Assembly: GCA_951813085.1 (NCBI GenBank)
Contig: OX638348.1
Span: 2,923,627 to 2,987,626 of the forward strand
DNA: 64,000 bases
From: an uncultured Opitutaceae bacterium
Lineage (GTDB): Bacteria; Verrucomicrobiota; Verrucomicrobiia; Opitutales; Opitutaceae
Direction of reading: 5' to 3'
Shown here: positions 8,261 through 37,625 of the stretch, piece by piece
Position numbering within the stretch: position 1 is the first letter of the stretch
Layout of the letters: each line of letters begins with the position of its first letter
Notes under the pieces: generated by a model
The model's input: the letters and a program-made list of their open reading frames with translations, nothing else
What the model was told of the DNA's origin: nothing
The model's database searches: none
Position numbers and translations under genes: made by a program

Positions 8261-8561
8261 ATCAATCGTTCTCGTCCGTCTCGATCGAGCCAATTCATTT
8301 CGAGCGCGATCCATAAGGACGCTCCATACTAAACAATTTTATGAAATCAGTAAATCGGGGCGAGAGACGGTGATGCTTTGAGGTCAGGCATTAGGGTGCT
8401 TTACTCAATGAACCCTAGGTCGAGCGGATCCGCTGAATCCTAATTAATTAAAGCGTCGCTAAACCTGATGTGGATGCATATTGTTGTTGAGCGGGCATTC
8501 AGGTATCGCTTCCATGATCAAGTCCCCAACGACGAGTCGATCGGAAAAACGGTTTTAACCT
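8261..8561. other. Divergent intergenic region without a recognised gene
   Basis: 301 bases separating the start of the VPDSG protein (minus) from that of the glycosidase-like gene (plus). It should contain both promoters. An AT-rich patch around TAATTAATTAA near 8441-8452 is visible, but no promoter, operator or RNA structure could be fixed. Confidence 0.4.
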
Positions 8562-10022
8562 ATGCTCAACAAACTCGCTCCATCAATTCTTAGGTTCGCT
8601 AGCATTGGGGGAGTCCTCGCTCTAGCAGGAACATTCGCAATCGCAGCATCCTCTGACCCTCCAAAGCTCGAACGCGAGTTTCGCGCGGCTTGGGTTGCGA
8701 CTGTATTCAATATCGACTGGCCCTCCAAGGCCGGTTTGAAGGTACGAGAGCAGCAACAGGAACTAACGGATCTTCTCAACGCCGCGAAGTGGATGGGGCT
8801 AAACGCGATCATCCTTCAAGTACGACCTGCAGCCGATGCCTTGTATCAATCAAGCTTTGAGCCTTGGTCACCCTACCTCACCGGCGAGATGGGACTTTAT
8901 CCTGGATACGACCCATTGGAATTCGCGATCGAGGAAGCCCATAAAAGAGGCCTGGAACTCCATGCATGGTTCAATCCCTTCAGAGCGCAAACGAACTACA
9001 AGAACGCCATAGCGGACGACCACATCGTCAATACGCGTAAAGACTGGATCAAGCGTTACGGTAACTACCTTTGGCTGGATCCTGGCAACCCGGAGGCGCG
9101 TGAATATTCCATTCAAGTGATTCTCGACGTCGTTGAACGGTACGACATTGACGGCGTCCACCTTGACGACTACTTCTACCCGTATCCGAGCAATGATGAC
9201 CGCTTGCCATTTCCAGATGAAGACACGTTCGAACGATTCGGTCGCGGAAAGATCGAGGACTGGAGACGGGCAAGCATCGACGACTTTATTGAAAACCTAA
9301 ACAAGCGTATCCATAAAACCAAGCCATGGGTACTTTTGGGGATCAGCCCTTTCGGTATTTGGAAACCGGGAACGCCCAAAGGAACCGAGGCCGGACTGGA
9401 CGCCTACAGCCTGCTTTACGCCGATTCCAGGAAATGGCTGCGAAAGGGATGGACGGACTATATGATGCCTCAACTATACTGGATGATCGATTCCAAAGGA
9501 CAGAGCTTTCCCAAGCTACTGGATTGGTGGGTTGGCGAAAACAAGCGAAAGCGACACTTGTGGCCTGGAATCGCTACCGATCGCGTGGGACCCGACCGTC
9601 CTGCTTCTGAAATGAGCAAGCAGATCAAGCTCATTCGCAGCTCGAAGCAGGACTACCCCGGTCACGCCCACTGGAGCGCCGACAGCTTGATCAAGGATCA
9701 GCGTGGCGTTCAAAAGCACTTGATCAAAACAACTTACAACTACCCTGCCCTTGTACCTCCAAGTAAATGGCTCAAAGGTTCCCGCCCCGATGCGCCAACG
9801 ATTGCGATAACGCCGAAAGGAGAACAATACGTCATCAAGATCGCCCCCCAGGACGCGGTCCGTTTTTGGATCGTACAAACCAAGATTGGATCCCGGTGGA
9901 CCTTTAGACGAATCGACGCGAATCAGGAATCCGTTACCGTCGACAGCGCAGACATATTCGCCGTATCCGCCCTCGGGCTGACCGGACTCCAAAGCAAGCC
10001 AACCGTCTACGATGCCCGGTAG
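8562..10022 (+). CDS. GHL10-type (DUF187) glycoside hydrolase-like protein, secreted
   Basis: 486 residues. A signal peptide (to about residue 30) precedes a TIM-barrel-like domain with the family landmarks EFRAAWVATV, LNAIILQVRPAADALY, AWFNPFR and DGVHLDDYFYPYP, whose acidic residues are probable catalytic or binding positions. The ~80-residue C-terminus may be a Fn3-like beta domain. GHL10 proteins are annotated as family-10-like glycosidases, mostly without known substrate, and act in the periplasm or at the surface. The gene stands upstream of fdhD by 30 bases, but no functional link between them is apparent. Confidence 0.85.
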   Translation: MLNKLAPSILRFASIGGVLALAGTFAIAASSDPPKLEREFRAAWVATVFNIDWPSKAGLKVREQQQELTDLLNAAKWMGLNAIILQVRPAADALYQSSFEPWSPYLTGEMGLYPGYDPLEFAIEEAHKRGLELHAWFNPFRAQTNYKNAIADDHIVNTRKDWIKRYGNYLWLDPGNPEAREYSIQVILDVVERYDIDGVHLDDYFYPYPSNDDRLPFPDEDTFERFGRGKIEDWRRASIDDFIENLNKRIHKTKPWVLLGISPFGIWKPGTPKGTEAGLDAYSLLYADSRKWLRKGWTDYMMPQLYWMIDSKGQSFPKLLDWWVGENKRKRHLWPGIATDRVGPDRPASEMSKQIKLIRSSKQDYPGHAHWSADSLIKDQRGVQKHLIKTTYNYPALVPPSKWLKGSRPDAPTIAITPKGEQYVIKIAPQDAVRFWIVQTKIGSRWTFRRIDANQESVTVDSADIFAVSALGLTGLQSKPTVYDAR

Positions 10023-23295: not shown

Positions 23296-23412
23296 GGTGG
23301 CCAGGCGACCTACGGCGCATGTGGAGCGTGACTACCGTTGCTACCTTCCGGTCCTGGCGGAGTTTGCCCGTTCCATCATCGCATAGGACCTAGCCGGCGA
23401 AAAACCTGGCGC
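23296..23412 (-). ncRNA. ffs: Signal recognition particle RNA, small bacterial type (4.5S)
   Basis: On the minus strand the conserved SRP core CCAGGACCGGAAGGTAGCA is present, with the GGAA tetraloop at 23344-23351, and is followed by the matching TGCGCCGTAGGTCGCCTGG strand. The 5' segment GCCAGG (23410-23405) pairs with CCTGGC (23306-23301) to close the helix. The molecule ends in a run of six Us (23295-23290). The length, ~117 nt, fits the small 4.5S class. It pairs with Ffh in co-translational membrane targeting. It lies just upstream of dnaX. End points are estimated from pairing. Confidence 0.88.
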
Positions 23413-23485: not shown

Positions 23486-24218
23486 TCAATCGGACAATTC
23501 GGACGCGGGCGATCCCTCCTCTGATTTGATCGGATCGAAGTAATAGCGCCGTTGATTCAGCTCGACCTGGATCTCCAGGGAGTCCAATTGAACAGGTGGT
23601 TTCAGAATCGCCAAAGTCCCGACGTCTGGATGGGCTCGAAAACCCGTGGAATAGACGATCTTCCATTCATCGGCCATACGCACCGCAAATTCGAAGGGCA
23701 CCTCGTCGATCGCCTCCAAAGCCCGGCTCCAGCGTCAAGGTTCGTTCCCCTACCCGAGCGAGCAAAGGCGGGACCGCCAAATTGAGGAATCGCAAATGCC
23801 CAGCCTCGAACTCTCCAGGACTCTCGTCCGCCACAAAAACGGTGTAGGGAAGATTCCTGAGGCTGTCTCGATTCGCGATGACAACGAGGAATGCTCGAGA
23901 CTCGATACTCTCGATATCGCCGACCGCGATGGTCTCTTCCTGCTCGCGCCCCTGTTCATCCTGAAACACGCGCAGGAACGCGATTTCTGATTGGTCCTCG
24001 GGCACCGCGTAAACCCGAGTGCGCCCATAAGGGTCGAACTCTATGGCCTCTCTTTCATCGTTCGCGTTGTAAAAATAGATTTCCTGAAAAAAATCGTTCC
24101 CAAATGCTCGGGCAGTGAATTGGATACGGGGTTCCTCCTCCAATTCCTGGGCCCACCCTAGGACTGTTCCGAATAACATCAAAATAAAAGTATACGTAAT
24201 TTGGATACAAATTTTCAT
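23486..24218 (-). pseudogene. Secreted protein of unknown function, last gene of the pseudopilin operon (frameshift)
   Basis: The ATG at 24218 overlaps the stop of the previous gene by four bases. A signal peptide ends near GWAQELEEE. The rest is beta-rich (FTARAFGNDFFQEIYFYNANDE, AIEFDPYGRTRVYAVPEDQ, VFVADESPGEFEAGHLRFLN), which I do not recognise. As read, the frame goes wrong near 23718-23726. One missing base there would join it to EAIDEVPFEFAVRMADEWKI and onward, ending at 23486, ~243 residues in all. Its place in the operon suggests an extracytoplasmic partner of the pseudopilins. Confidence 0.65.
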
Positions 24219-26646
24219 ATCTCGTCACCCGTCAACCACCGAAAGGCGATAACGCGGTACTCCCGGCCATAATTTCCAGGAGTATTCAAGGTTGGCAACA
24301 TGGGGTCTTGATTACCGGGAGTCACGTCGTATTCGGTCTCATCTTTAGCGTGCACGCGCTGCACGATCACTTCGCAATACGCTCTCACCACCGTTTTTGT
24401 CGCATCGAAGGGGTTTACGGAGTCGCCATAAGCTCGGATGACGAACGTATCGCTACGAGCGGACAAGAAAGGAGCGATCGCCGCCAATACGTCTTGCTGG
24501 GTCAAGAAGCTGGAGGCGTAGGCCAGTTCCGTCAATGGATCCGCTAAGTCGGTTCGAACAGCGTCATTCAGACCAGCGGCTGCGATAGCTCCTTCAATGA
24601 CGCCTGAATCCACGAAATCCTCAAGGCTCACGAACGGACCAACCGTACCAGACAGCGCTTGGCGACGGGTGCGGATCAATTCAACTATCTCAGTCGCCAG
24701 AGTCTCCACTTCCGCATCCGTCAGGGAGCGCATCCCCTTGCGGAAGAACTCGCGTGACTTTCCAAGATCGGACATGTCGTAGGAGCCAAGCCAGGTTTCC
24801 TCAGCGGTTTGCCCGAAGCGCAGGAATTGATATTCGCCAGTTACATCCACTTCGCTTTGCCCGGCTACCGGAGTAGAGCCCAAAGGATCGTCATAGGCCC
24901 AATTCCCCAATCGTACCCCTTTCAAAAGCGAAGCCCAAGCTTCTATCGATGTGGAGTTCACATTGAACGCCCCCTCCAGATAAAGGTGCTCTGCGGAGTC
25001 GGGGTCTTGCAGATCTCCGATCGCCGTTCCTTGAACCGGTTGCATTCGACTATTCGGCAGCGGCGCAGAAGGCGTCCATGTCGTCGTTCCCTGCGGGACA
25101 GTGGAAAGGAAGAAGCGGTCGAATACTTCGTTGATGGGAGCCACAGGACTGATGCTCGCATCAGACGCTCCCAAATGCGCCTTCAGTCCCGATGGGAATT
25201 CCGCCATTTGCAATGCGCCAAGAGAGAGGAATTCCTGACGCGGCAGTCCAAGCAACGGAATGTTGTTTTCGATAGAAGCGTCAGAATTGTAGCCCAGCAA
25301 ATCCGTGACTGAGCTTTGGATCGTCGAATTCGAAAAGGGATTGTCCCCACCCGGGTATTCGAAAAAGAACATCGACGCAGGAACATACCCCGGAGGCGCT
25401 GGATTCGGGTCACGGTACTGGCAATGGGGGGAGGTTCTGGAGCCGTTTCGAGATCTTTCGCCGACATACGAATCACCAAGTGGAATTCAGAAATCACCGG
25501 TGAGATATTAGGCGTCGGGCCACCCCCTCCAAACGTCGTACCCGCAGCGATCGGATAGGAACGCGTTAATTCAGTGGGCGATGTAAAAGCGATATCGGCA
25601 ACATTCAGGTAAGGCATCAAGTAATTATTCACTAGATCGTCTACCCCCGTATCTCCCGTATTCACCAAATGAATATCGGATAAATCCTCTCTCAATCCCC
25701 CTCTTACCGTATCCGCGAGCAACCCGATCGATGTCCCAGTATAGTCATGAAATCGACGCAGCACATCATTTTGCGTAAACGTCCCCAGGAACGACAATCC
25801 TGGATTCTCCTCTTGCCGCAGCACGAGCTCGCTTACGATCGAATCTATCCGCGCATTCGTCGCATCCACTGCCCGTCCATCCACTTCAAGCAGATAGCGC
25901 TGAACGAGCATTTGTTTCAACCGAGCATGCTCGTCTGTCGGAGAACCCGCATTATCGTAGCCGTCGTGAACGATCCCGGAATGCAGATCTTCAGAAGATA
26001 GCTGGCTTTGACCCCGTTGTCGCCCACCCAATACGCGTAATGGCCGACCGTTGCTTGCTTAGAGGTCGCCAATCCGACGATGTTGTCGGACAGCAGCGGT
26101 TCCTTAGGCACCCAAACATCATGATTGGTCTGTCCGCTGGAGGGTGTCTCTGGCTTGGCGGTTCCCGCTCCCACCAGCTTTACCAATTCCGAGGACACTC
26201 CTGTCGCTGGCAAACGGATCCGCGTCTTGCATGCCCGTATCGATCGTATAGGTCGCGTCCAAGGGTCGAGTGACGAGCCATCTCGGCGCATCGGACGTGT
26301 TGTCATTGTCCCAGGCACCTGTCCAAAACGGCTGGTACACGCCGCTCGTCCCAGGAGAGTTGGCATCGTTGAAATCATCATCCGCAGGAACGCGGGCACC
26401 GTCTGCTATCGCCGTTATCCTCTGGTCCGGACCCGTGAGGGTTTGCAGGTCGCCTATCGCCATTTGCAAGGCAAGACGCGCATTCGCTCGGGCAACCCTC
26501 AATCCCTGATCGTATTGGCTGGAAGCCGTTTCTACTTGCGTTAGCGAAACCAGCGACAGCCCCAGAAGCAAAACAATGCTCGCCAGGGAGAATACAAGTA
26601 TCAAGGCGAAGCCCTTTCGATTTCGAAATCGAACCAATCCCTTCAT
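24215..26646 (-). pseudogene. Verru_Chthon cassette protein A-like / GspK-PilX-like large pseudopilin, three frameshifts
   Basis: Start at ATG 26646, one base after the stop of the previous gene. The N-terminus (RKGFALILVFSLASIVLLLG) is the GspK/PilX type of prepilin signal, lacking the canonical Glu5. The large exported region then runs through three frames: DADPFA to TGVSSELVK (~26200, one base extra), KASYL to SSEDLHSGIVH (~25995, one base missing) and APEPPP to HCQYRDPNPAP (C6 run at 25426-25431, probably one C lost). The restored protein is ~810 residues. Cassette A members are the large, poorly understood component of this verrucomicrobial prepilin set. Confidence 0.72.
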
Positions 26647-26647
26647 G

Positions 26648-27592
26648 CTACAATCCGCTCCTCCCTCGAACAACGATGTAGCGTCTATAAAGACGTGAGT
26701 TATTCTCGACGATTTCCTCCCAGGTCGCGTTGCTCCCTCCCTCTTCCATCACAGAGATTTCGTCGGCCCCATTCTGGCTTAGCACGCGAATGAACACCTC
26801 GACGACATCTGGATAGCGATCTCCATAAGTTGCACCCACAAACGTGGATCCTTGGTGCTGCAGCGTTGAAGGGATCGTAGTTTCCAGTCGACTAGACGAA
26901 TTTGCCGGGAAAATCAATCGCAGCCCATCCGGAGCATCCACATCGCTTGGATCCGGGTAGTCTGGCGAGCTGGCTGGTTCATAAATATAGAGCCGTACCC
27001 CAAAATCCACTACGTTTACCGCGAGTATATTCGATCGCGTGATTGCTGACGCCCCTCCTCCTGTGGTGTACACGGACGAGGACAGGTTCATTCCGTATGT
27101 CTGGATATTGTCCACCGTATCTTTGGCGAGCGTGGCGTTGCGATAGAGCATGTACCGAGGAGTGCCCACGGAATCTCGTATGGTGGATCGGATTATTTGG
27201 TAACCCACCGCGTTAAGCGTGGGTGACGCCGTAATAAGCCGGACCCAACAGCCCGCCCACCCGTATTCATGATTCGCTGTATCGAATCCGGACGAGATCG
27301 GTCTCCCCGCCGACGCGCCTTCCCACTTCGAGCCCGTGTTTGAATCGTCTCCCAATACGTCTACAGCGAACATATGGTCGGACCCTTCCAGGAAATAGGC
27401 CGACTCGAAATCGCGCGCGATTATGTCGAGAGCCGCGCGGGCCTCGGTCTCCCGAGCTACAGAATCTCCAAAATTGTCCCAGGCATTCGCAAAGTCGCGA
27501 CCAATGGAAATAAAGAAAAACCCGATCACCGCCGTCACTGCAAGGGCGACTACCAGTTCAATCAACGTAAAGGCTTTTCTCACTGAATTCAT
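26648..27592 (-). CDS. Verru_Chthon cassette protein C-like / GspJ-type pseudopilin
   Basis: 314 residues. The type IV prepilin signal is KAFTLIELVVALAVTAVIG, with Glu5 after the cleavage site. The long C-terminal domain, with EARAALDIIARDFESAYF just after the helix, is the PilW/GspJ pattern. It starts inside the stop of the preceding gene (4-base overlap) and is followed after one base by the A-like gene. It is probably a minor pseudopilin at the tip of a secretion or pilus-like fibre. Frame intact. Confidence 0.8.
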   Translation of the reverse strand: MNSVRKAFTLIELVVALAVTAVIGFFFISIGRDFANAWDNFGDSVARETEARAALDIIARDFESAYFLEGSDHMFAVDVLGDDSNTGSKWEGASAGRPISSGFDTANHEYGWAGCWVRLITASPTLNAVGYQIIRSTIRDSVGTPRYMLYRNATLAKDTVDNIQTYGMNLSSSVYTTGGGASAITRSNILAVNVVDFGVRLYIYEPASSPDYPDPSDVDAPDGLRLIFPANSSSRLETTIPSTLQHQGSTFVGATYGDRYPDVVEVFIRVLSQNGADEISVMEEGGSNATWEEIVENNSRLYRRYIVVRGRSGL

Positions 27593-28131
27593 TTACTCAA
27601 TACAACTGGTAAAATCAACTGCTGCAGCGATTCCGCATTGCTCTCGTTATCGACGTACCCGCCCCCAGAATCTGGGACGAACGCTGGCCAAATGATATTG
27701 AATAAGAAGACCCGGTAAGGATCGTCATCGTCGTAGACATAGCCGTCGGGCATGGATACTACGACCTTATAGTATTTTTCACTATCCGACATCGTCGCCC
27801 CATCTTGCTCCAGCGTATCCAAATCGCTACTTGCATAGAACTCAACGTCGCTCAGCAGGAAGCTCTCATGAAAGACATCGTATATCAAATCAGTGCCACC
27901 TGGGCCCGCTCCCACATCGACGATAGTCGCTCCACGCAATTCCAATTCCAGCAACGACTTTATTTCAACTGCATTGGGCGCTTGCAGTTCCGTATTCGAA
28001 TTTCGATACGAAAGGGCAACCAAACCTATTGCGGGAACGACAATGATTGCGAATACGGCGAGCGACAGCACCGTCTCGAGAAGAGTGAACCCTCTCCTTG
28101 AAAGCTTAACTGTTCCCACGCGTACTCTCAT
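27589..28131 (-). CDS. Verru_Chthon cassette protein B-like / GspI-PilV-type pseudopilin
   Basis: 180 residues. Its prepilin signal is RRGFTLLETVLSLAVFAIIV, with Glu5. The short globular domain after it (LLELELRGATIVDVG, YKVVVSMPDGYVY) fits the PilV/GspI class. It overlaps both neighbours by four bases, so translation of the set is coupled. Prepilin peptidase would process it in the inner membrane. Frame intact. Confidence 0.8.
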   Translation of the reverse strand: MRVRVGTVKLSRRGFTLLETVLSLAVFAIIVVPAIGLVALSYRNSNTELQAPNAVEIKSLLELELRGATIVDVGAGPGGTDLIYDVFHESFLLSDVEFYASSDLDTLEQDGATMSDSEKYYKVVVSMPDGYVYDDDDPYRVFLFNIIWPAFVPDSGGGYVDNESNAESLQQLILPVVLSK

Positions 28132-28904
28132 AGCTCGTTCGGATCATTGACCGCATAGCTTACCCCATTAGCTCTCAGATAAATTCCAACCGTGAATTGA
28201 CTATTCTCAAAGAGCAGATTCCCATCCGCCTGATAGCTCGCCAATCCCAGAACGATATGGTTTCCGATGGCGCCAGAGGCGCTCGAGCACACTCCAAAAT
28301 CGGACTTCTTGACGTGTCCATCGGGACCAAATTGAAAGCCGATCCAATCCTGTTCCATACCCGTCGAGGCATCCAAGGAAACAGCGTTGTCAACCGGGTA
28401 CTCGACCGCCCCAACCGCCAAGCTCGATCCGCTGCCCGTGCAATAGTATTCGCTCCGCATGTCTGGATCCGCGCCCACCGCTGGCCATACGGAATCAAAG
28501 GCGAACCCATCCGTCAGCGGGGCTACAGGCTGCGGTACGAAATAGACTCCCTCCGGCAGATAGATCCCTGAATGAGCGGCCTCCCAATTCGTCGAATCGT
28601 ATTCCTGCTCGACGAGCACTCCCACGTAACGGAGAAACTTGTCAGGATCGTCTTTATCGTAATTCACGATCAACATAGAATTCGTTCCCTAGACGATCGC
28701 CTGCTGCCGCGCGAACCGTAGCATACTATGAATTTCGTTGCGGGCCGCATTCGCAGCGCCTGGCGGCACACTCGCTTCGTATCCAACAATACCCATCGTC
28801 GCGAGCACCACTATAATAGATAGCTCAACCACGATCTCGAATAGCGTGAAGCCTCGGCGTAACTGCAGCCTGCGAGCATAAAGCAATTTGCGCGATTCAA
28901 TCAT
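28128..28904 (-). pseudogene. Verru_Chthon cassette protein D-like / GspH-FimT-type pseudopilin, in-frame TAG
   Basis: The signal RRGFTLFEIVVELSIIVVLA is followed by NEIHSMLRFARQQAIV, the standard FimT/GspH helix (R-x-A-R-x-x-A-I). A TAG at 28689-28691 then interrupts the frame. The same frame continues GTNSMLIVNYDKDDPDKFL, giving a full ~258-residue protein ending at 28128. Nothing downstream looks degraded, so one base change is enough. Alternatives are a sequencing error or a true nonsense mutation. An internal ATG shortly after the stop could give a helix-less fragment only. Confidence 0.72.
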
Positions 28905-29489
28905 TCTGCGTAAATATTGTCCTGATTGCTCGCCCCAGCCTCGTTGTTTTGACCTTCTGCGGTAATGTCCGTGTACAAGCTATCGGGCCCCGCGGAGAAA
29001 AGGACATAGTTGAAGTTTTCCCAGTTAGAGTCATCCGGATCGTAGCGATATTGAAACGGTGTCCCCCACGGATCGATAATCGTATTGCTAACGAGTGCAG
29101 GCGTTCCCCCAATTACCGGAAAGCTGGAATTCGCAAACTCAAGCGCGCTGCGATCCAGCATCGGTGGAAAATTTCCCAGCGCTCCATTCGGAGCCAAGGA
29201 ACCATTCAGGGCATTGAACAAGACAAGCTCCATCGAAGGCGTACTGCCACCTACCATCGTTTTCCGGGGATATTCCCCGAACCGAATGCGGTAGGCTTCA
29301 AGGAAGGGCTTGCTGAATGTGAATAATATCAGCGTGAGCTTGCTTCCTTTTCGACTGCGGCAGCAGACCACCTACTCCCGTAGCGAGCATTGTCATAGTG
29401 ATAGCGATGACCGCAACCGCCGTTAGTATCTCGAGCAGGGTAAATCCTCTCTTGGCAGCTAGGTTCTGGACGCATCTCAGCATATCCAT
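28901..29489 (-). pseudogene. GspG-like major pseudopilin, frameshift
   Basis: First gene of the operon. The signal KRGFTLLEILTAVAVIAITM has Glu5. After HIQQAL the frame stops. Removing one C of CTTCCTTG (29302-29303) restores LEAYRIRFGEYPRKT, and later IIDPWGTPFQYRYDPD, the major-pseudopilin pattern in which a Pro-Trp-Gly-x-Pro-Tyr-like motif precedes the calcium-site region of GspG. The restored protein is ~195 residues. It is probably the fibre subunit of the set. A one-base insertion or a sequencing error is likely. Confidence 0.75.
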
Positions 29490-36120: not shown

Positions 36121-37456
36121 TTAATCCAGCATCTGCACGATCTCGCCTTCCACGAAATCAGCAGTAAGCCGTACCAGTTTCACTTCGGCGCAGCGATTCG
36201 CTAAATCGTCCCCACCCATCGCGTCGCGTGGAACGACTACACGAATGTAGTTATCCGTGTATGACGGCCATGATTCAGGCTTTGGGTTCTCGAATAGCGC
36301 ACGCATCGTTTGCCCTAAATAGGACTCGTAGAAATCGTAGCGCTTTTTAGCGGCCAATCGCCGTAAATAGGCGCTACGCCGCTGGCGCTCTTCAATCGGC
36401 ACCTGATCCTCCCTACGAGCCGCTACTGTCCCCTCCCCGCTCTGAGAAAGGAAATACATGGCAAAAATCGAACGGATTCTCCAGGAAAACACGGCAAGTT
36501 TCCTGAAATGCGTCTTCAGACTCGCTTGGGAAACCAACCATTATATCCGTCCCAATGTACAAATCGTCGACGATTCGATGGGCCAGATGAAGAAAGTCTA
36601 AGTATTCAGATATTGAATACCTTCTTCGCATTTCCTTCAAAACGAGATCGCTTCCTGACTGCAAGGGAATATGAAAGAACGGCAGCAACGCATGATCGGG
36701 ATCATTCATGAGCATGAAAAGGGCTTCCGGAATTGTGGTCGGTTCAATACTGCTGATTCGAATGCGATCGATTCCTTCAATCGAGTTCAGACCATCCAGC
36801 ACCCGCAACAAGTCCGCTTCTTTTGTTAGGTAGGTACCGATATTGACGCCAGTGATGACTACCTCCCGAACTCCTTGGGCCGCCTTCGCGCGAGCCTCGT
36901 CCAATAGGTTATTGAAATCGCGGGACCGTGAGGCACCACGAGCCAAGGGAATTATGCAAAAACTGCATACGAAGCTGCAACCGTCCTGTATCTTCAGGTT
37001 CGCCCGCTGATTGAAGGGAAGGTCCCCGAAAAACGAAATCGAAAAATCGTCTTGGCTAATCTTGTCGCGTATGATGACAGGCGCCTCGTTCTTTTCCTGT
37101 CCTATGAAATCCACCACGCTCATCTTCTCCTGATTGCCGATAATCAAATCCACTCCTCCAATCGAGGCGATCTCCTTCGACCCCATTTGAGAGTAGCAAT
37201 CGATCACGGCGGTATAGGCCTCAGGATTCCGCCGCACAAACTGTCGAATGGTTTGGCGACACTTCGAATCCGCCAGATTGGTAACCGTGCAGGTATTTAT
37301 GATCCCAAAATCCGCTTCCTCGCCGAACGGCACGATTTCATAGCCTTCCTCCTGAAGCCGTTGCTGGATCAGCAGCGTTTCAGACTGATTCAAGCGACAT
37401 CCCAACGTATGCAAGGACGCTCGTTTCGAATTTGGCTGTGTGGTCGCGGTCACCAT
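36121..37456 (-). pseudogene. mtaB: MtaB-like tRNA t6A37 methylthiotransferase, one-base frameshift
   Basis: Radical-SAM enzyme that adds a methylthio group to t6A37 of tRNA. The N-terminal domain (LHTLGCRLNQSET, INTCTVTNLADSKCRQ) and the radical-SAM site CSFVCSFC are clear, with GVREVVITGVNIG and PLQSGSD downstream. The frame is lost after PFSERGG. Removing one C from the run at 36430-36433 restores GTVAARREDQVPIEERQ and a TRAM-like C-terminus ending at 36121, ~444 residues in all. A housekeeping gene with an intact remainder, so a sequence error is the best explanation. Confidence 0.85.
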
Positions 37457-37625
37457 AAATCAGCCCGAAACTCATAAGCTCAATCCGAACAATGTCATTA
37501 AAAAAACGCTCCATCGCTCCCCTATTGAACGTGAATATCCATCCCGCTTTCGCTCGTAATTTGGATAGTCGGCGATCCAATGAGCCATTAGGCGCCAATG
37601 AAGCGTTTTTGGACTCGCGCCACCT

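Follow-up and report, generated by a model that had tools for sequence, protein, structure and literature searches.

Which machine would a set of pseudopilin-like proteins serve when its largest member is a giant and no ATPase or secretin gene lies nearby? The question is raised by a 64,000-nucleotide stretch of DNA from an uncultured Opitutaceae bacterium, referred to here as the window, which corresponds to G000:C1:2923627-2987626 in a 4.85 Mb genome assembled as one contig (G000; other genomes and loci are given below as G and L numbers). On its minus strand, six linked genes follow each other in the order G-D-B-C-A-P6, with ATGA-type four-base overlaps at four of the five junctions and a one-base gap between C and A, so that the six-gene operon and its tight spacing are as described in an initial annotation of this DNA. 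The same six genes, all open and in the same order, are found in the genomes G009, which belongs to the window's genus, and G010, and homologous six-gene sets are present in further genera. The initial annotation took the set for a diverged pseudopilus tip, and this reading is partly supported, as the structure is real and the character of A was guessed correctly. We lean towards the reading that the operon encodes a giant GspK-type tip set, in which A and P6 form an exchangeable pair, that it uses a shared pilus-like machine, and that it has been disrupted in this genome.

28901..29489 (ATG at 29489), minus strand: G, GspG-like pseudopilin; two pieces in different frames, with a 4-base insertion at 29307
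28128..28904, minus strand: D, GspH/FimT-like pseudopilin; in-frame TAG at 28691-28689
27589..28131, minus strand: B, GspI/PilV-like pseudopilin; open frame, PF07963 at 25.3 against a cut-off of 21.2
26648..27592, minus strand: C, GspJ/PilW-like pseudopilin; open, 314 amino acids (aa), PF07963 at 24.0 against 21.2
24215..26646, minus strand: A, putative giant GspK-type tip protein; broken, with losses at 26203, at 26000 and of 631 bases around 25443-25412
23486..24218, minus strand: P6, predicted secreted tandem beta-sandwich partner of A; broken, with 23 bases lost at 23716
23296..23395, minus strand: small SRP RNA (Rfam RF00169, 57 bits), between P6 and dnaX, bounding the unit from outside

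A giant GspK-type protein and its probable partner

The A protein is around 1000 aa long, compared with 353 aa for the GspK of the type II secretion system (T2SS) encoded elsewhere in G000, and the remark that it is much larger than GspK was thus accurate. In a relative, the predicted model of A displays a GspK fold over 238 of 280 GspK residues (PDB 3ci0 chain K and 5vtm chain X), agreeing with the structural similarity anticipated initially, and an inserted beta domain of about 300 residues is predicted mid-chain. The absence of glutamate at mature position +5 (Glu5) is a GspK trait. At this position A carries leucine, isoleucine or valine in all 44 non-gap rows of the alignment, the window's A reading GFALIL. 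The fold, the leader lacking Glu5 and the place after H-I-J-like genes are shared with GspK/XcpX of the T2SS, whereas A differs in its size, its inserted domain, the P6 gene that usually follows, its many copies in some relatives and its scores below the GspK model NF037980, for which the A of locus L057 reached 21.9 of 130 and that of L048 had no listed match. Against PDB sequences, no match was found for the A profile, the C profile retrieved three pilin leaders, and that of P6 one match at E 0.75. Based on the fold predicted in a relative, A is a GspK-type subunit, and it may sit at the filament tip. In a separate case, L218 of genome G143 (8475-9338), what comes after the D-B-C core, as judged by eye, is a protein of 287 aa whose leader is GspK-like, and no giant A.

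The remaining proteins resemble T2SS pseudopilins in outline. Prepilin leaders are present in G, D, B and C, and a GspK-like leader in A. At the intact locus L048, G, D and C score 24.5, 25.8 and 27.2 with PF07963 (cut-off 21.2), and G matches PF08334 (T2SS GspG) at 34.6, above the gathering score of 21, under which the G of L057 (12.1) and the C-terminal piece of the window's G taken alone (17.4) remain. The GspG and GspH equivalogs TIGR01710 and TIGR01708 were matched by L048 below their cut-offs (45 of 88.85 and 35.2 of 80, the latter with E 1.2e-8 for D). Using hhalign, C aligned with T2SS GspJ over 71 N-terminal columns (E 1.5e-8) and B with GspI in the leader region only, and these N-terminal matches slightly favour C as the GspJ-like and B as the GspI-like member. 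The family mapping made initially was right in outline, yet only B and C are open frames, the other four genes being broken.

P6 is linked to A. Among loci with enough sequence, it comes after A at 24 of the 29 full, 25 of the 33 solo and nine of the 12 other ones (for these terms see below), in line with the earlier view of the sixth product as a secreted partner of the set. The model of a relative's P6 (pLDDT 91.3) is a tandem beta-sandwich, for which the fold search lists Ig/transthyretin-like folds, and no Pfam family was matched in three relatives. No PilY1-like row was listed in that search, which carries no evidential weight. Given the linkage, P6 may contact A.

The initial annotation had also named the operon a Verru_Chthon cassette. 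This is very unlikely. There are N-terminal matches of the window's C (6.5e-5) and A (0.0068) to the Verru_Chthon models, A aligns with a true cassette A over 61 columns (E 4.5e-8), and true cassettes likewise combine an A of very large size, its leader GspK-like, with B, C and D proteins that have pilin leaders. However, the 61 columns cover the leader only, and the scores of the window's A piece (14.3 of 332.3) and C (22.3 of 256.5) are far below the cut-offs, with no match for B or the D pieces. Intact relatives score similarly (A 14.3-27.7 of 332.3, C 23.4-30.9 of 256.5, D 14.7-21.7 of 70 and one B 30.8 of 51.4), so that membership in the families TIGR02600, TIGR02598, TIGR02599 and TIGR02596 (A to D) was rejected by score, every curated cut-off being missed. 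The seven true-cassette loci are arranged as B-C-A-D (L158, L161, L162), B-C-D-A (L159, L163), A-B-C-D (L160) or A-B-C with a pilin (L157), a variable order in itself, and in none of them was the G-D-B-C-A-P6 order or a P6 found. Like A in some relatives, the cassettes are multicopy, in both of the two genomes (out of 145) passing the A cut-off.

Dispersed A-P6 pairs and their neighbourhoods

Scanning with the A alignment gave 560 stretches matching the pattern, of which 543 encode a relative, and 80 loci were kept. There are TWO ARRANGEMENTS of A loci, "full" ones with C or B directly upstream and "solo" ones with neither; together with L165, the 34th solo locus, the 80 comprise 33 full, 34 solo and 14 unclassed loci, the last mostly short of upstream sequence. 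Within the window's genus, one A place or none is found (none in G006 and G008), while the survey of other copies returned 17 in G099, each followed by P6, and A-profile matches numbering 29, 21 and 15, some of them pieces, in G093, G102 and G177. In G099, G177, G093, G102 and G055, the core stands apart from A and P6 and consists of two G genes with D, B and C in four of these five genomes and of D-B-C in G177, and each of the five has one full-length-type C match as best. A D-B-C core is also present in G143 and G077. The A-P6 pair has thus dispersed, and the core occurs without A. Were one core to serve all the A-P6 pairs duplicated into gene clusters, the pair would be the exchangeable, probably substrate- or cargo-specific part, and tips may be exchanged on a single core. 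Two more PilV-like/PilW-like/large-third-protein sets occur in G000, at L040 2832-6001 and L041 422-4031 (G000:C1 ~2.537 Mb and ~2.061 Mb); their third proteins, of 657+ and 740 aa, are absent from the listed A-profile matches.

The association with polysaccharide loci is strong in G099 but only partial in other genomes. In G099, two genes on each side of the 17 copies (68 genes) were compared with 68 control genes, taken in fours from 17 stretches; three P6- or G-like matches and several overlapping or antisense open reading frames (ORFs) were left among the neighbours. Among the families listed, the neighbours match GH5 (3), GH13, GH16, GH31, GH38, GH78, GH94 and GH125 (2), as well as trehalase, a polysaccharide lyase, SASA esterase (3), CBM4/6/35 and LacI and GntR regulators, whereas the controls are mostly housekeeping genes and glycosyltransferases with one GH77. 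Catalytic families among those listed thus account for 16 matches per 68 genes near A versus one per 68 control genes. Sulfatase positions were discarded as a marker in G099, where they amount to three genes. At 33 solo loci from diverse genomes, all 121 neighbouring genes were examined, and the families listed include sulfatase (3), GH5, trehalase, heparinase-like and AXE1 (2 each), LacI (4) and single matches to GH2, GH16 and arabinofuranosidase. Full-operon flanks (62 of 106 genes) hold acs, rho, dnaX and similar genes, with GH28 twice among the families listed. Judging from gene neighbourhood, the set may act in polysaccharide binding, uptake or enzyme export.

A related observation concerns Verruconatronum alginivorum, for which the cited passages of PMC13274419 report a PulG-like pseudopilin in an alginate-degradation cluster, count 67 homologues in a single Opitutales genome and suggest T2SS export of the alginases. 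That pseudopilin gene likewise lies within a polysaccharide-degradation cluster, but these passages describe a PulG-like protein and mention neither a giant GspK-type protein nor a P6 partner. The literature searched (titles, abstract openings and cited passages) gave no account of polysaccharide loci with giant GspK-type tips, which does not prove that none exists.

Lesions in the window's genome and the choice of machine

The lesions in G, D, A and P6 were located by alignment to the G009 operon, which is intact. An insertion of 4 bases, resembling a tandem duplication, lies in G; D has a TAG codon at a position where the G009 protein has glutamine; A lacks two bases (26203), one base (26000) and 515 plus 116 bases (around 25443-25412); and P6 lacks 23 bases at 23716. 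As aligned, none is a homopolymer slip. In a wider survey comparing genes of G009 and G010 with their G000 counterparts, a gene was called broken if, against at least one reference, two frames were needed or an internal stop occurred beyond residue 70. Broken genes comprise four of six in the operon, five of seven in the table of type IV pilus machine genes (PilB1, PilC, PilM-like, PilN-like and the secretin), none of 11 in the T2SS and five among 44 others; of these five, L039 6835 and L247 2964 may be chance ORFs. PilT, scored open from its single 356-aa frame, and a second ATPase are open. Operon and pilus machine together have nine of 13 genes broken, compared with five of 55 for the rest (p 2e-5); this survey superseded an earlier Fisher comparison (4/6 versus 1/22).

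Sequencing or assembly errors in an operon that is intact in the organism would be an improbable cause of these breaks. In their favour are a background of broken genes above zero (5/44), the intact B and C and the amino-acid divergence of the broken pieces, which is not raised. Yet a loss of 631 bases, another of 23, a glutamine-to-stop change and a duplication-like insertion are unlike homopolymer slips, and the breaks cluster in the operon and pilus machine while sparing the T2SS. Decay of the operon and much of the pilus machine, taken jointly with the whole of the favoured explanation, stands just on the probable side of even. Outside the operon, the split genes in G000 include those at three places: the window's minus strand at 36124-37459, where a gene of 440-464 aa in G009 and G010 lies over two frames; L047 12417-13745, a 448-aa gene of G010; and L247 5605-10042 (G000:C1 ~0.43 Mb), where the operon for PilM/N/O-like proteins and the secretin has three genes split relative to G009, the PilM-like, the PilN-like and the secretin gene. 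Here, the names PilM-like and PilN-like reflect the place of these two genes, neither of which has a Pfam match, ahead of the PilO-like gene (PF04350 at E 0.014, under its cut-off) and the secretin (160.6 bits with PF00263).

As stated initially, no ATPase or secretin gene is near the operon, all PF00437 and GspD-like secretin places of the genome being outside the window, and the operon does not adjoin T2SS GspC-F, L or M. The survey of the genome for such genes did find, outside the window, one prepilin peptidase match, a complete T2SS in a separate cluster with its own GspG-K, the pilus machine genes and several ATPases, so that the peptidase and assembly genes expected by the initial annotation exist. 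Nine stretches surrounding cores or operons held no match to the G000 T2SS, PilT or PilB reference proteins (PilM/N/O-type proteins lie outside this reference set).

At all six loci, PilB1 lies downstream of genes judged by eye to be coaE- and rho-like (in L242 with three genes intervening), pilT comes next at four of the six, and PilB1 is full-length and open in G002, G003, G004, G007, G009 and G010. Scoring PilB1 as present at 49% or more identity over at least 300 aa, with the broken copies of G000 counted as present and G099, G093, G102 and G177 excluded, 46 genomes at least 90% complete divide into 34 with both A and PilB1, none with PilB1 only, six with A only and six with neither (G006, G012, G014, G016, G027, G040; p 1e-4, uncorrected for shared ancestry); for all 57 genomes, the counts are 37, 2, 8 and 10 (p 5e-5). 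This co-occurrence, together with the co-decay in G000, favours the pilus machine over the T2SS. The proposal that the set borrows a shared machine is accordingly upheld as to the missing machine genes in the window and the tracking of PilB1 by A, while the sharing itself is inferred.

It is rather unlikely that the operon is a second T2SS pseudopilin set, in which a giant GspK replaces the ordinary one to export particular enzymes and each A-P6 serves its neighbouring enzymes. This would fit the GspK fold of A, PF08334 in G, the T2SS with its own G-K set in G000, the T2SS secretin match in all 18 genomes tested, whether or not they have A (the best match of each having E 5e-42 or lower), and the carbohydrate enzymes flanked by A-P6 pairs in G099. 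However, G012, G014 and G016 have a T2SS secretin match without an A match, A follows PilB1 instead, and the T2SS of G000 is intact (11/11) while the operon decays.

Less likely still is a reading as minor pilins of an ordinary pilus for adhesion, twitching or DNA uptake, with sugar-enzyme neighbours that are incidental. The minor pilin cluster of type IVa pili has the order fimU-pilV-pilW-pilX-pilY1, and PilY1 is a beta propeller. Its H-I-J-K-like order, ending in an extra secreted protein and with the machine in trans, fits the operon as well. Also in favour are the co-occurrence with PilB1, adjoining PilT in four of six loci, the mostly housekeeping flanks of full operons and the housekeeping neighbours of many solo loci. 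Against this, A is GspK-like and lacks Glu5, P6 has no Pfam match in three relatives and an Ig/transthyretin-like fold in place of a beta propeller, and A-P6 is amplified beside carbohydrate enzymes in G099 as compared with controls.

A proposed mechanism and its meaning

In the favoured reading, G, D, B and C would form the filament and the base of its tip, and A would cap the filament with its inserted beta domain exposed, partnered by P6 as a secreted two-domain beta-sandwich. Having no machine of its own, the set would act in trans with PilB1, PilC, PilM/N/O-like proteins, a secretin and PilT. Some lineages with many polysaccharide enzymes would have copied the A-P6 pair into the clusters of these enzymes, all copies being served by a single D-B-C core, to which G belongs in four of five genomes. 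A system of the same phylum offers a parallel, as the cited passages of PMC13174399 describe the MUL2 region of Akkermansia, whose pilus-like system is linked to attachment to glycans and their uptake, as including rho and dephospho-CoA kinase genes, such as lie near PilB1; the likeness is one of gene neighbourhood only and is suggestive.

Several points weigh against this reading. The case is computational, and its mechanism reaches beyond the predicted fold and the comparative genetics. Profile alignment of A with GspK covers the leader only, so that kinship beyond the leader rests on the predicted fold. A occurs without PilB1 in G025, G039, G042, G044, G045 and G048 (in the last two by weak matches only), the co-occurrence carries no correction for ancestry, and its 49% line, on which G017 lies, was chosen after the rows had been seen (without it, 33/0/7/6). 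The PilO-like gene (196 versus 196 aa) and the gene before the secretin (135 versus 157 aa) look open, and hence the machine is not uniformly broken. With the divergence of the broken pieces not raised, decay, if real, must be recent, and saturated synonymous sites make dN/dS uninformative. The Pfam tallies list 25 of 36, 28, 60 and 46 families, so that hidden ones could raise either side, and are blind to two domains on one protein; and the sugar-enzyme signal is only partial at the 33 solo loci, where many neighbours are housekeeping genes.

It could tentatively be speculated, as a possible yet doubtful extension, that one pilus body carries many giant tips, each polysaccharide cluster bringing its own A and dedicated P6 onto a single G-D-B-C base and a shared retractable machine. 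If true, this would be substrate-specific, pilus-driven glycan capture in Verrucomicrobiota, a pilin-built counterpart of SusCD. For annotation, large proteins that match Verru_Chthon A weakly and in the leader alone can be of the GspK type, and the operon in the window's genome is best annotated as disrupted. Uptake of large polysaccharides by Verrucomicrobiota is only partly understood, according to the cited passages of PMC13174399. The giant tips, the shared pilin core and the numerous A-P6 pairs, which adjoin carbohydrate enzymes in at least one genome, provide concrete genes for testing. They suggest that the tip subunits of pilus-like machines are swappable as modules, and the copies of the tip among sugar-degrading genes in some relatives may help explain how these bacteria handle polysaccharides.

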